Below, piece by piece: positions 47,486 through 53,868 of a stretch of 64,000 bases of DNA. The DNA comes from Methanospirillaceae archaeon (lineage in GTDB: Archaea > Halobacteriota > Methanomicrobia > Methanomicrobiales > Methanospirillaceae): contig JAFGOM010000052.1 of the NCBI GenBank assembly GCA_016926505.1, forward strand, positions 1 through 64,000, given 5' to 3'. The notes beneath the pieces were generated by a model. It worked only from the letters and a program-made list of their open reading frames with translations. It searched no databases and was not told the origin of the DNA. The translations under genes and the position numbers were made by a program. Numbering within the stretch: position 1 is the stretch's first letter; each line of letters begins with the position of its first letter.

Positions 47486-50146
47486 ATGCCAAGCCCAAAG
47501 AGAATTGGAAAAATAGATTTTGGCCTGCTCTCCCCGAAAGAGATTCGCCAGATGAGTGTCAGGAAGATCATCTGGGCAGATACCTACGATGATGATGGAT
47601 TTCCGTATCCCCAGGGTCTGATGGATCTCCATCTTGGAGTTATCGATCCGGGTTTACGGTGTAAGACCTGTTCCCAGAAGTCAGGGGAATGTCCTGGTCA
47701 TTTCGGACATATCGAACTGGCAAAACCGGTCATTCATGTCGGGTATACCCGGCTTATCAGAAAACTGCTGCGTGTGACCTGTCGTGAGTGTGGGAGGCTC
47801 CTGCTCTCTTCTGATGAGATAGAAAAGATCATCGGCACCGATATATCTGCAACAGGGGATTCATTAACTGAGAAAGATATTAAAAAAGAGCGAATCTGTC
47901 CGCATTGTGGTGAGCAGCAGTTAAAGATTAACTTCGAGAAACCGACGACCTTTGCCGAGATTGCAACCGATGAACGGGGAAAGAAGGTTGAGAATAAACT
48001 GACTCCTGCAGACATCAGGGCACGTCTCGAGAAGATACCTGACGAGGATCTCCGTCATCTTGGTATTGATCCCGTGGTTGCACGTCCGGAATGGACTGTT
48101 CTCACGGTTTTACCCGTTCCTCCGGTTACCATGCGTCCGTCAATCATCCTAGAGAACGGTCAGCGTTCTGAGGATGATCTGACCCATAAACTTGTTGATA
48201 TTATCAGGATAAATCAGCGGTTTAAAGAGAATCAGGATGCAGGAGCACCTCAGCTCATCATAGAAGATCTCTGGGAACTGCTCCAGTACCACGTAACAAC
48301 GTACCATGATAACGAGGTGGCAGGATGTCCGCCCGCACGTCACCGGAGTGGACGGCCCTTAAAAACCCTGTCCCAGCGGTTGAAAGGAAAAGACGGCAGG
48401 TTCAGGGGCAGTTTATCAGGGAAACGTGTCAACTTTTCATCCCGTACGGTAATCTCTCCTAACCCCAATCTCTCTATCATCGAGGTTGGAATCCCCTTAC
48501 GGATTGCAAACGAGATGACGATACCCATCAGGGTGACCCAGTTTAACATCGAGGAATTACGGGAGATCGTCAGGAATGGTCCTGACCGGGAAGATGTACG
48601 GGATCCCTGCGGTGCCAACTATGCCATTCGTCCTGATAAGCGCAGGGTACGACTCACGAAAGGTGCTACCTCGGAGGATGGAAACCTTGAGTTTATCGCC
48701 GAACAGATGGAACCCGGCTGGACAATCGAACGCCACCTGCGGGATGGGGATATTGTGCTCTTTAACCGTCAGCCTTCGCTGCACCGGATGAGTATCATGG
48801 CTCACCGTGTCAAGGTGATGGATGGCAAGACATTCCGGTTAAATCCTGCGGTATGTCCTCCTTATAACGCAGATTTTGATGGTGACGAGATGAATCTGCA
48901 TATTCCCCAGACCGAGGAGGCACGGGCTGAGGCATTTCTTCTCGCATCAGTCCAGGAGAATATTCTCTCACCCCGGTTTGGAGGTCCGATCATTGGTGGT
49001 ATCCATGATCATATATCAGGGATCTTCATGCTCACCCATACCCGCCGGTGGTTTAACAAGGGTGACGCAATCAGCATGCTGCAGAATTGTGACATAAAAC
49101 GGATGGGAGAGCCTGATAAGATCGAAGATGATGTTCCGTACTGGACAAACAAGCAGATATTCTCTCATATTCTCCCACCAACCCTTAACATGGTATTCCA
49201 GGCATCGTCATGTGAGAACTGTGATCAATGCTTACGTGAGAACTGTGACAGGGATGCCTATGTCAGGATAGTCGATGGAGAACTGCTCTGTGGTACCATC
49301 GATAAAAAAGCCATTGGTGCATTTGATGGTGCAATTGTACATCGGATTATCAGGCAGTACGGCTATGCACGGGCAGTGCAGTTCATCGATGACGTTACGA
49401 GACTCTCAATCCGGGCCATCATGTATGATGGATTTACCTTTGCCATTGATGATGAAGATCTCTCAAAGAGTGATTACGGGCAGATCCGGGAGGTTCTTGA
49501 ACGTGCAACTCATGACGTGGGACGCCGGATTCAGATATACGAGGACGGACAGCTCGAACCGATGCCGGGAAGAACAGAGGAGGAGACACTTGAGATGCAG
49601 ATCATGCAGGTTCTCGGGAAAGCCCGTGATAATACCGGAGAGATTGCAGGGAGACATCTTGGTCTCTCTAACAGTGCTGTTGTCATGGCAGTATCAGGAG
49701 CCCGGGGTTCAATGCTGAACCTGACACAGATGGCAGGTTGTGTCGGCCAGCAGGCAGTTCGTGGTGAGCGTATCATGCGTGGATACGAAGACCGGACTCT
49801 CCCTCACTTTAAGAAGGGAAACCGGGGAGCAGAAGGGCATGGGTTTGTCAAGAATAGTTACAAATCCGGTTTAAATCCGACTGAATTCTTTTTCCATGCG
49901 ATTGGAGGTCGTGAAGGTCTTGTTGATACCGCAGTCAGGACCAGCCAGAGCGGGTACCTGCAGCGGAGGATGATAAATGCACTTCAGGATCTTAAAGTGG
50001 CGTATGACGGGACTGTCAGGACCACGGGTGGCCGGATTATCCAGTTCAATTACGGAGAAGACTCAACCGATCCGATGAAGAGCAGTTTCGGACAACCGGT
50101 GGATGTTAAGGGCATCGTTGAGAATATTCTCAAGGAGGCGGTCTGA
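47486..50146 (+). CDS. rpoA1: RNA polymerase subunit A' (RpoA1)
   Basis: 886 aa, the larger N-terminal part of the beta'-like subunit. Zinc-binding motif near the start (CKTCSQKSGECPGHFGH), second cysteine cluster (CRECG, later CPHCG), and the catalytic NADFDGDEMN near residue 460, whose three aspartates hold the active-site magnesium. The bridge-helix region and GAEGHGFVKNSYKSGLNPTE follow toward the end. It also has an inserted cysteine-rich stretch (SSCENCDQCLRENCD, about 575-590). The gene abuts rpoA2 with no space. Confidence 0.96.
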   Translation: MPSPKRIGKIDFGLLSPKEIRQMSVRKIIWADTYDDDGFPYPQGLMDLHLGVIDPGLRCKTCSQKSGECPGHFGHIELAKPVIHVGYTRLIRKLLRVTCRECGRLLLSSDEIEKIIGTDISATGDSLTEKDIKKERICPHCGEQQLKINFEKPTTFAEIATDERGKKVENKLTPADIRARLEKIPDEDLRHLGIDPVVARPEWTVLTVLPVPPVTMRPSIILENGQRSEDDLTHKLVDIIRINQRFKENQDAGAPQLIIEDLWELLQYHVTTYHDNEVAGCPPARHRSGRPLKTLSQRLKGKDGRFRGSLSGKRVNFSSRTVISPNPNLSIIEVGIPLRIANEMTIPIRVTQFNIEELREIVRNGPDREDVRDPCGANYAIRPDKRRVRLTKGATSEDGNLEFIAEQMEPGWTIERHLRDGDIVLFNRQPSLHRMSIMAHRVKVMDGKTFRLNPAVCPPYNADFDGDEMNLHIPQTEEARAEAFLLASVQENILSPRFGGPIIGGIHDHISGIFMLTHTRRWFNKGDAISMLQNCDIKRMGEPDKIEDDVPYWTNKQIFSHILPPTLNMVFQASSCENCDQCLRENCDRDAYVRIVDGELLCGTIDKKAIGAFDGAIVHRIIRQYGYARAVQFIDDVTRLSIRAIMYDGFTFAIDDEDLSKSDYGQIREVLERATHDVGRRIQIYEDGQLEPMPGRTEEETLEMQIMQVLGKARDNTGEIAGRHLGLSNSAVVMAVSGARGSMLNLTQMAGCVGQQAVRGERIMRGYEDRTLPHFKKGNRGAEGHGFVKNSYKSGLNPTEFFFHAIGGREGLVDTAVRTSQSGYLQRRMINALQDLKVAYDGTVRTTGGRIIQFNYGEDSTDPMKSSFGQPVDVKGIVENILKEAV

Positions 50147-52129
50147 ATGGCAAAAGAACTTACCACGAACCATGCCTTCGCGATAGAAGTCCTTTTGTAT
50201 TTCTCTGATCGGAAGATAACAAAAAAATTTCCTGACGATGTCCCTGATGAGATTCGTGAATGTCTTCTGACGATGTATGAGGACCAGAAGAAGGTGGAAG
50301 ACCCTGATTTTATCCTCGACGATGCAGGATTTACCGCAGAGATGGACAACCTCGTCTCATCAGGCCAGTTTTCAGACTGGCTTGAGGAAGTATTCCGTCC
50401 CCTTGCAGAAGAGGTGATAGCAGAAGATGCAGAGAAGTCAGAGACTGATAAGACCGTCCCGGTTTCCTCTCCTATCATCCCGGTTACCAAACCCTTTGTT
50501 CCTGATAAAAAATCACAGGAAATACGCGATTTTTTTGCAATTCATCAGATTAATGGGGCTGAAATTCCGGAACTTCCCGCTAAAATCGAGAAAATTCTGA
50601 AAGATAAGGTGCGTGACATCAAAAAGGAAGAAAATCCTGCTTTCAGACTGACCCAGAAACAGTTCCTGATGTACCTCACTGAAGTTACAGAAACAGTGGG
50701 ATTCGAAGCATGGCTCTGTAAAACTTTCCCTCTCTCTGATAATGAATCCGAGTATGCACATGATGAGGGAAGTTCGAAAATTCTCTATTCCGAATCACAG
50801 GTACCCCTTCCGGAATGGGTTAGTATTGATAGATTTAACCTGTTGGAGCGGTTTAACCGGGATAAATTCAGGTGGCTGATGCGGGATCATGCCCGGGTAT
50901 TAGAAGAACTCTCTTCTGATCCGGCGGTCATATCCCGAATTCATGACCGTATCTTTTCACTGATAGAAAAAGACCTGCCTCACCAGACTAATACCGATCT
51001 CGCAACCATCATCCTTAACCGTGAACTTGAAGGACTAACTGATCCCTCCCGGGTGATCACCGATGAGCAGGTAGAACAGATACTAAACCAGATGATCAGG
51101 GAGTACGAGCACACCCGGATTGAACCCTGTGAAGCCGTCGGTATTATTGCAGCCCAGTCAATAGGAGAACCCGGTACCCAGATGACGATGCGGACATTCC
51201 ATTATGCCGGTGTGGCCGAGATCAACGTTACCTTAGGTCTGCCCCGTCTTATCGAGATCATGGATGCAAGGAAAGAACCCTCAACGCCTACCATGACCAT
51301 CTACTTACGAAGTGGATACGCGACAGATCGTGACAAAGCCCGTGAAGTATCGTGGTATATCGAAGCAGCCAAGCTCCTGGAGTTTGGTGATATCACGACA
51401 GATATGGCAAACATGCAGATCGTTGTCACTTTAAACAAGCAGGTCTGTGATAAACGCAAGATATCTGTCGCAGATATTCTTGAAGCAGCACCACGCAAAA
51501 TCAAGGATCGTCGTCACTATCGTGATTTTGAGTGTGAGATCGATGAAACTATCCCGAAAATGACCTTCATCCCCAAGGACCGGGAGAGTTACCAGAACCT
51601 GTTTCAGTTAAAGGAACATGTGCGAAATGTCATCGTGCAGGGAATTGATGATATCGAACGTGTTGTTGTGCGAAAAGAGAACGGCGAATATATCCTCTAT
51701 ACCGAAGGATCAAACCTAAAGGATGTCTTTGCCGTAAACGGGGTTGATACAACCCGCACGCGGACAAACAATATAAACGAGATATCACACGTTCTTGGGA
51801 TAGAAGCTGCCCGTAATGCAATTATCTTTGAAGCTATCGCAACCCTGCAGGAGCAGGGTATCATGGTTGATGTCAGGCATATCATGCTTGTGGCAGATAT
51901 GATGTGCATGGAAGGGGAGGTCAAACAGATCGGCAGACATGGTATTGCAGGAGAGAAAGAGAGTGTCCTTTCACGGGCAGCATTTGAGGTCACGGTCAAC
52001 CATCTGCTGGATGCAGCTGTTGCGCACGAATCAGATATTCTCTGTGGTGTGACCGAGAATGTGATTGTCGGCCAGCCGATTCAGCTCGGGACTGGAGATG
52101 TTAAATTAGTTGTAAGACATACCTCATAG
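50147..52129 (+). CDS. rpoA2: RNA polymerase subunit A'' (RpoA2) with a large duplicated N-terminal extension
   Basis: 660 aa, against about 380-400 in most archaea (from memory). The canonical A'' part starts around residue 255 and carries [20 protein letters not shown] (about 326-345), the trigger-loop segment [12 protein letters not shown], and the C-terminal [12 protein letters not shown] and [12 protein letters not shown] regions. One oddity is Cys in EPCEAVG where Gly is usual. Residues 1-255 are extra. Within them residues 33-86 and 144-196 align without gaps over 51 positions with 15 identities (shared P..I...L, D.KK.E.P.F.L, F..WL...F), so the extension is a tandem duplication joined by a Pro/Val/Glu-rich linker. 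Function of the extension is unknown. Confidence 0.92.
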
Positions 52130-52976: not shown

Positions 52977-53726
52977 ATGACCATTACAAAGCGGTATACC
53001 GTACTCATCGGGGTGATTCTGTTCGTTCTCTTATTCGTTTCCCTCGTTTCTGCCTGTGATTCTGTTGCGCAACCTGAAAAAGAGAAGGAAGTAGCTGTTC
53101 AGATAAACCAGATGGGCAAGGATTACACCTTTATCTTTCGTGGTGGCGCAGGTCAGTCACAGGTGAAGGATATAACCGTGGAGGTGATAGCCCCGGACGG
53201 AACAAAACAGACCGGAACTCTCTCTCCGGACCGGGTCGGTAATGAGGTAACGATCACCGGTACCGGGTGCGGGGACCGGGTTTTAGTCACCGTTACGTAT
53301 ATGAACGGGTATTATTATGTTATCTATGATGATCTCATGGATGTAATCAGCGGTTTTTGTGATACCCCGTACTATGTTGCACAAAATCCCTGTGAGGGTA
53401 CATCAGAATCATCTTATATGCAACCGGGAGGAGTTGCTGTCATCCCTGATGACCGGAGTGTAATAATCCAGGCAAACCCGAATTTAAACGAACTTGAAGT
53501 TCAGTTTCGCGGAGGATTCGGGCAGAATATACTCTCGTATATCGAGGTTGAATTTATCGAGCCTGACGGAACCCATGAAGTGAAAGAGCTGAGTAATGCA
53601 TCAGGTGATGAGGTAACCTTTACCTCTACCCAGTGTATCGGAAGGCTTGTTGCAACAGCATACTTCATGGATGGGATGTCATACCGTTTCTACGACAGTC
53701 TCATCAGATTTTTAGGCAGATATTAG
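52977..53726 (+). CDS. Secreted lipoprotein-like protein with two tandem repeats
   Basis: 249 aa. A signal sequence (about 7-25) ends in LVSAC, a lipobox-like motif that would place lipidated Cys at the new N-terminus. The mature part holds two homologous modules, about 38-120 and 160-245, each with F(I/V/R)RGG.GQ, VE.I.PDGT, a G.EVT.T.T.C segment and a YM.G..Y..YD.L ending; each has one conserved Cys. No family is recognised. It follows the polymerase operon but has its own promoter and is probably unrelated to it. Cell-surface location inferred. Confidence 0.75.
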   Translation: MTITKRYTVLIGVILFVLLFVSLVSACDSVAQPEKEKEVAVQINQMGKDYTFIFRGGAGQSQVKDITVEVIAPDGTKQTGTLSPDRVGNEVTITGTGCGDRVLVTVTYMNGYYYVIYDDLMDVISGFCDTPYYVAQNPCEGTSESSYMQPGGVAVIPDDRSVIIQANPNLNELEVQFRGGFGQNILSYIEVEFIEPDGTHEVKELSNASGDEVTFTSTQCIGRLVATAYFMDGMSYRFYDSLIRFLGRY

Positions 53727-53728
53727 GA

Positions 53729-53734
53729 TTTTTT
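53729..53734 (+). terminator. T6 terminator after the lipoprotein gene
   Basis: Six T residues two bases after the stop codon. Confidence 0.45.
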
Positions 53735-53779
53735 ACCATCTTTCTCTTTTATCGGTCAGACGATTCCGGGATTATCCGG

Positions 53780-53787
53780 AAAAAAAA
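53780..53787 (-). terminator. T8 terminator after tRNA-Arg
   Basis: Eight T residues on the minus strand, about seven bases beyond the tRNA-Arg 3' end. Confidence 0.55.
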
Positions 53788-53793
53788 GAAGAG

Positions 53794-53868
53794 CGGACCT
53801 GAGGGGATTCGAACCCCCGACATTCGGGTTAGAAGCCCGACGCTCTATCCTGGCTAAGCCACAGATCC
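53794..53868 (-). tRNA. tRNA-Arg (anticodon TCT)
   Basis: Complete cloverleaf on the minus strand: acceptor GGATCTG with CAGGTCC (one G-T pair), anticodon stem TCGGG/CCCGA around CTTCTAA giving anticodon TCT (reads AGA), T-arm GGGGG-TTCGAAT-CCCCT, discriminator G, no encoded CCA. An AAATATT box about 40 bases upstream may be its promoter. Confidence 0.95.

Follow-up and report, generated by a model that had tools for sequence, protein, structure and literature searches.

By sequence comparison, the RNA polymerase A'' subunit (RpoA'', Rpo1C) encoded in the window, that is, the whole 64,000-nucleotide stretch of Methanospirillaceae DNA analyzed here, carries a translated N-terminal extension of ~270 residues. 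Two stretches of this extension, M1 and M2, are identified by profile alignment as true repeats of one helical module. The usual view of archaeal RNA polymerase is of a fixed core plus a few small optional subunits, and lineage-specific additions to RNA polymerases are already a known kind. In the present case, a repeat-built domain of ~270 residues is kept family-wide on the subunit bearing the trigger loop, which indicates that additions as large as a domain can be accommodated at the A'/A'' junction, where Pol II has its foot. The extension, its repeat structure, and its place appear to be undescribed: no description of any of them was found in the literature searched, which covered few subscription papers, and the genome paper of Methanospirillum hungatei JF-1 presents the polymerase gene set as "typical" (PMC4704411). 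The gene comprises the following features.

50133-50138 (+): Shine-Dalgarno sequence AGGAGG, read from the sequence, within the 3' end of rpoA', with 8 bases between it and the rpoA'' ATG
50147-52129 (+): rpoA'' (Rpo1C), 660 aa, with the N-terminal extension (open reading frame; TIGR02389)
50171-50422 (+): module M1, residues 9-92, repeat of M2, charge -12 to -16, four helices in the AlphaFold2 model
50423-50497 (+): variable acidic/proline linker, residues 93-117, with the highest dN/dS (alignment; pLDDT <50 at 92-119)
50498-50758 (+): module M2, the second module copy, residues 118-204 (hhalign against M1)
50759-50800 (+): variable linker, residues 205-218 (alignment; low pLDDT at 198-218)
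50801-50932 (+): third conserved helical stretch, residues 219-262, PxWV...DKxRxLxRDH (alignment; hhalign)
50933-51121 (+): ancestral helical element of the A'' N-terminus, residues 263-325 (hhalign with the N-termini of short A''; alignments)
51122-52126 (+): conserved A'' core from EPCEAVG, with the trigger-loop region, jaw, and C-terminus (identity; PF04998/TIGR02389)

The identity of the gene is clear from the family models. TIGR02389 matches residues 291-656 with 488 bits (cut-off 420.65), and PF04998 also matches. The frame, its length, and the EPCEAVG motif beginning at residue 326 are as the initial annotation gave them. From about residue 263, the protein is an ordinary archaeal A''/Rpo1C (TIGR02389; 2pmz_C, 4qiw_C), and its core is 78-89% identical to that of short relatives. 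However, 325 residues precede the motif, compared with 52-54 in short relatives and 316-328 in extended ones. Similarly, the solved A'' chains, 2pmz_C and 4qiw_C among them, are 391-397 aa long, whereas the window A'' has ~270 extra residues before the core. Thus, the extension that had been put at 255 residues is present, and its extra length is rather ~270.

The gene lies directly behind rpoA', in an operon with the order rpoH, rpoB'', rpoB', rpoA', rpoA'', an L7Ae/L30e-family protein, and a NusA-like KH protein; this order is ordinary for archaea, in agreement with the earlier reading of the operon as otherwise normal. The rpoA' stop codon TGA (50144-50146) immediately precedes the rpoA'' ATG at 50147, and the Shine-Dalgarno sequence lies inside the rpoA' end. 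In the relatives examined, both short and extended, AGGAGG in the A' end likewise leads A''; in every extended gene, the extension also runs on into A'' without a break. Since the start is led by the same Shine-Dalgarno sequence as that of short A'', the extension is read as the translated N-terminus. Furthermore, the extended genes contain no conserved internal start led by a Shine-Dalgarno sequence near the old N-terminus, including near residue 255, where the initial annotation had proposed to look for one as a sign of an upstream frame. Together with purifying selection and occurrence in 13 genomes of one clade, the conserved start makes it vanishingly improbable that the extension is an upstream frame that is not translated or that the start is wrong, and we rejected this artefact. 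An intein in A'' was also rejected, as the extra sequence is at the N-terminus, nothing interrupts the core, and no intein family of Pfam or NCBIfam matches. Separately, the A'' frames of G111, G115, G117, G126, G133, G143, G184, G187, G201, G214, G216, and G219 are ~640-955 aa long, and in them the match to the family is interrupted near profile position 60-64; most likely, these frames contain inteins located immediately ahead of or inside the conserved EPCEAVG/trigger-loop region.

The repeat is supported at several levels. The 15 identities over 51 ungapped positions reported earlier were reproduced between residues 33-83 and 144-194; this is the best offset in the whole extension and exceeds every one of 300 shuffles, the best of which gave 14. 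When the two halves were aligned with gaps (Smith-Waterman), the score was 66, compared with a mean of 28 for shuffles (Z 7.6; 0/2000 as high), and hhalign of M1 and M2 profiles from 12 genomes aligned 72 columns with a probability of 97% (E 3e-10). The proposed internal duplication therefore holds. Its two copies were correctly recognized, while the unit, ~75 aa at about residues 13-88 and 125-198, is longer than the limits first assigned (33-86 and 144-196). In the third stretch (residues 219-262), hhalign detected no similarity to M1 or M2. Residues 263-325 match the N-termini of short A'' proteins (hhalign E 2e-15), with an inter-helix loop that is longer than in relatives. Across the three genera that carry the extension, >50 of its positions are invariant, aromatic and hydrophobic ones among them; these go together with an acidic surface.

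AlphaFold2, run on the extension with nine sequences, predicts an all-helical chain with four helices per module at moderate confidence (mean pLDDT 71, pTM 0.35). The linkers are of low confidence, with pLDDT <50 at residues 92-119 and low values also at 198-218. The fold of full-length A'' was poor (pLDDT 60) and was left unused. Among close relatives with unsaturated synonymous sites, dN/dS in M1 and M2 is mostly 0.01-0.14; the core has about 0.01-0.03, and values in the linkers reach 0.35. This purifying selection on both modules indicates that the extension does something. Additionally, the net charge of residues 1-262 is -21 to -28 in the six proteins compared, and that of M1 alone is -12 to -16.

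The extension is restricted to one clade. In a survey of 108 genomes of the family, it is present in the window genome (G000), genus g8, and genus g13. Its profile matches 15 of 232 genomes of the order well, with G075 and G081 partial owing to contig ends, and only members of this clade match well among 394 genomes sampled across the phylum. No convincing match lies outside the clade in either set; a weak match in G268 (E 0.005), which spans a portion of the profile and contains a stop, was treated as chance. All 13 genomes with an assembled gene front carry the extension, and they represent three genera, namely Methanospirillum, Ca. Methanofilum, and that of the window. The matching records include Methanospirillum, Methanomicrobiales, and Candidatus Methanofilum arcanum; Methanospirillum and Candidatus Methanofilum both belong to Methanospirillaceae. 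The extended proteins group as one clade with support 98/98 in a tree built from the A'' core; the unlabelled row L013 in this clade comes from a contig that starts inside the extension. This distribution is best explained by a single gain in the ancestor of Methanospirillaceae, the simplest history the sequences suggest. The polymerase domain is thus lineage-specific, as had been suggested, being confined by profile searches to Methanospirillaceae and not general to Methanomicrobiales. Moreover, the cultured type strain M. hungatei JF-1 carries it, which makes purification, structure determination, and pull-down directly possible.

As for the source of the modules, no relatives of the extension were found in Pfam, NCBIfam, or PDB sequences: residues 1-255 gave no Pfam match at E up to 10, and a profile search of PDB chains was empty. 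A fold search gave no significant match; this search is insensitive, since the ancestral A'' unit itself brought no polymerase match. Phage and plasmid sequences contained no match to the extension, and no module paralogue was found elsewhere in the window genome or in 40 relatives (best outside match E 0.015). A common pattern is found in the modules and in the canonical A'' N-terminus, namely a proline-capped helix followed by a helix that starts from an Asp/Thr cap plus Gln-Phe/Tyr or similar. Aligned in register by hhalign, the combined module profile scored 24.3 against the canonical A'' N-terminus (probability 53%). In the controls, 96 core windows reached at most 14.5, and 300 column shuffles reached at most 16.2 except for one that outscored the real pair at 130.7 with a nonsense alignment. 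M1 and M2 may derive from the A'' N-terminal element itself, which is suggestive only.

To place the extension on the enzyme, we aligned the subunits with yeast Rpb1. The alignment of the A' end stops at residue 875 and that of the A'' core starts again at residue 1038, and we take the limits of the Rpb1 foot to be about 876-1057. The extension thus occupies the Pol II foot position and not the jaw; in the chain, it comes after the post-bridge-helix segment and ahead of the cleft segment that precedes the trigger loop. In Sulfolobus Rpo1C, the jaw comprises residues 147-236 (PMC2675907). The earlier placement at the junction of the split A' and A'' subunits stands, whereas its proximity to the jaw and cleft does not. 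The eukaryotic foot has the same place in the chain (between Rpb1 875 and 1038) and is also multihelical, a comparison of how the two might work only. No sequence similarity between them is detectable, and the insensitive fold search gave no match. Because the extension is confined to one archaeal family, it is most likely independent of the Rpb1 foot. In eukaryotes, the Pol II foot contacts Mediator (PMC6130968) and is touched by the capping enzyme (PMC6981093) and CDC73 (PMC13175633).

By analogy with these contacts, our best guess, which keeps the regulator docking initially suggested and to which we give an even chance, is that the extension is an acidic helical docking domain on the polymerase surface for a lineage-specific partner. 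It would fold as acidic helical bundles outside the polymerase, near the foot position, and would offer a docking platform for a lineage-specific transcription or RNA-processing factor, much as the eukaryotic foot is used by Mediator, the capping enzyme, and Cdc73. The catalytic core would be unchanged, and DNA would not be bound. Nothing unusual is seen in the A' and A'' core, Rpo6, Rpo7, or Spt5, and the frame lengths of Rpo6, Rpo7, and Spt5 are ordinary as well (the Rpo7 of G017 is fragmentary); these features point to an added surface and not a rebuilt enzyme. On their frame lengths, Rpo6, Rpo7, and Spt5 were rejected as co-changed partners. A further-reaching version is unlikely. In it, the N-terminal element of A'' was multiplied within this archaeal family to give a foot of its own, which would have arisen independently of the eukaryotic one and would serve, in parallel to it, to recruit a lineage-specific factor.

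One of the two main alternatives, fairly unlikely, is that the extension is a structural brace that rests against A', Rpo6, or the stalk base and stabilizes the split A'/A'' assembly with no outside partner. Its location at the split and its strong conservation are consistent with such a brace, as is the dissociation of Rpb4/7 in yeast foot mutants (PMC8875030). However, all other Methanomicrobiales manage this assembly with no such extension, no corresponding change in length is seen in the core or in Rpo6/Rpo7, and the long flexible linkers suit tethered domains better. Contact with nucleic acid, either downstream DNA or exiting RNA, would fit a part of the polymerase made of repeated helical units, which can bind nucleic acid, yet the conserved negative charge of the extension and of M1, the foot position away from the jaw and cleft, and the lack of any match to a DNA- or RNA-binding family make it very improbable; the DNA-contact module initially suggested is disfavored by this charge. 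The other main alternative, near-neutral accretion at a junction that tolerates additions, with the extension kept for little function, is somewhat strengthened by the different, unrelated N-terminal additions that further Halobacteriota families appear to carry there, and the extension also evolves faster than the core. Nevertheless, the clear purifying selection on M1 and M2, the number of positions invariant in three genera, and the absence of any loss of the extension among the assembled genes of the clade leave this explanation quite improbable.

The additions at the same A'/A'' junction in other Halobacteriota were observed as apparent A'' N-terminal additions in L117 and L119 (family f10) and in L118 and L120 (family f19). 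They are shorter than the Methanospirillaceae extension (very roughly 60-80 residues), differ in sequence, and are unrelated to M1 and M2; that of f19 weakly resembles a helix-hairpin-helix (HHH_5 E 0.001, below the curated cut-off). Rpo13 of Sulfolobales is likewise a lineage-specific part of an archaeal polymerase (PMC2675907, PMC7289017). In contrast to the fused extension at the foot, Rpo13 is a separate small subunit that lies close to Rpo5 and the clamp head at the downstream DNA channel.

Two further observations concern the neighborhood of the operon in the window. Behind it, positions 52977-53726 encode a 249-aa protein that appears to start with a signal sequence and matches nothing in Pfam; visual inspection shows two copies of a ~80-residue domain, FRGGxGQ...EPDGT...TxxxCxxRxxVTxxxMxG. 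The open reading frame at 53633-53857 is spurious, and its end (GPEGIRTPDIRVRSPTLYPG) is an antisense reading of the tRNA-Arg gene at 53793-53868 (-).
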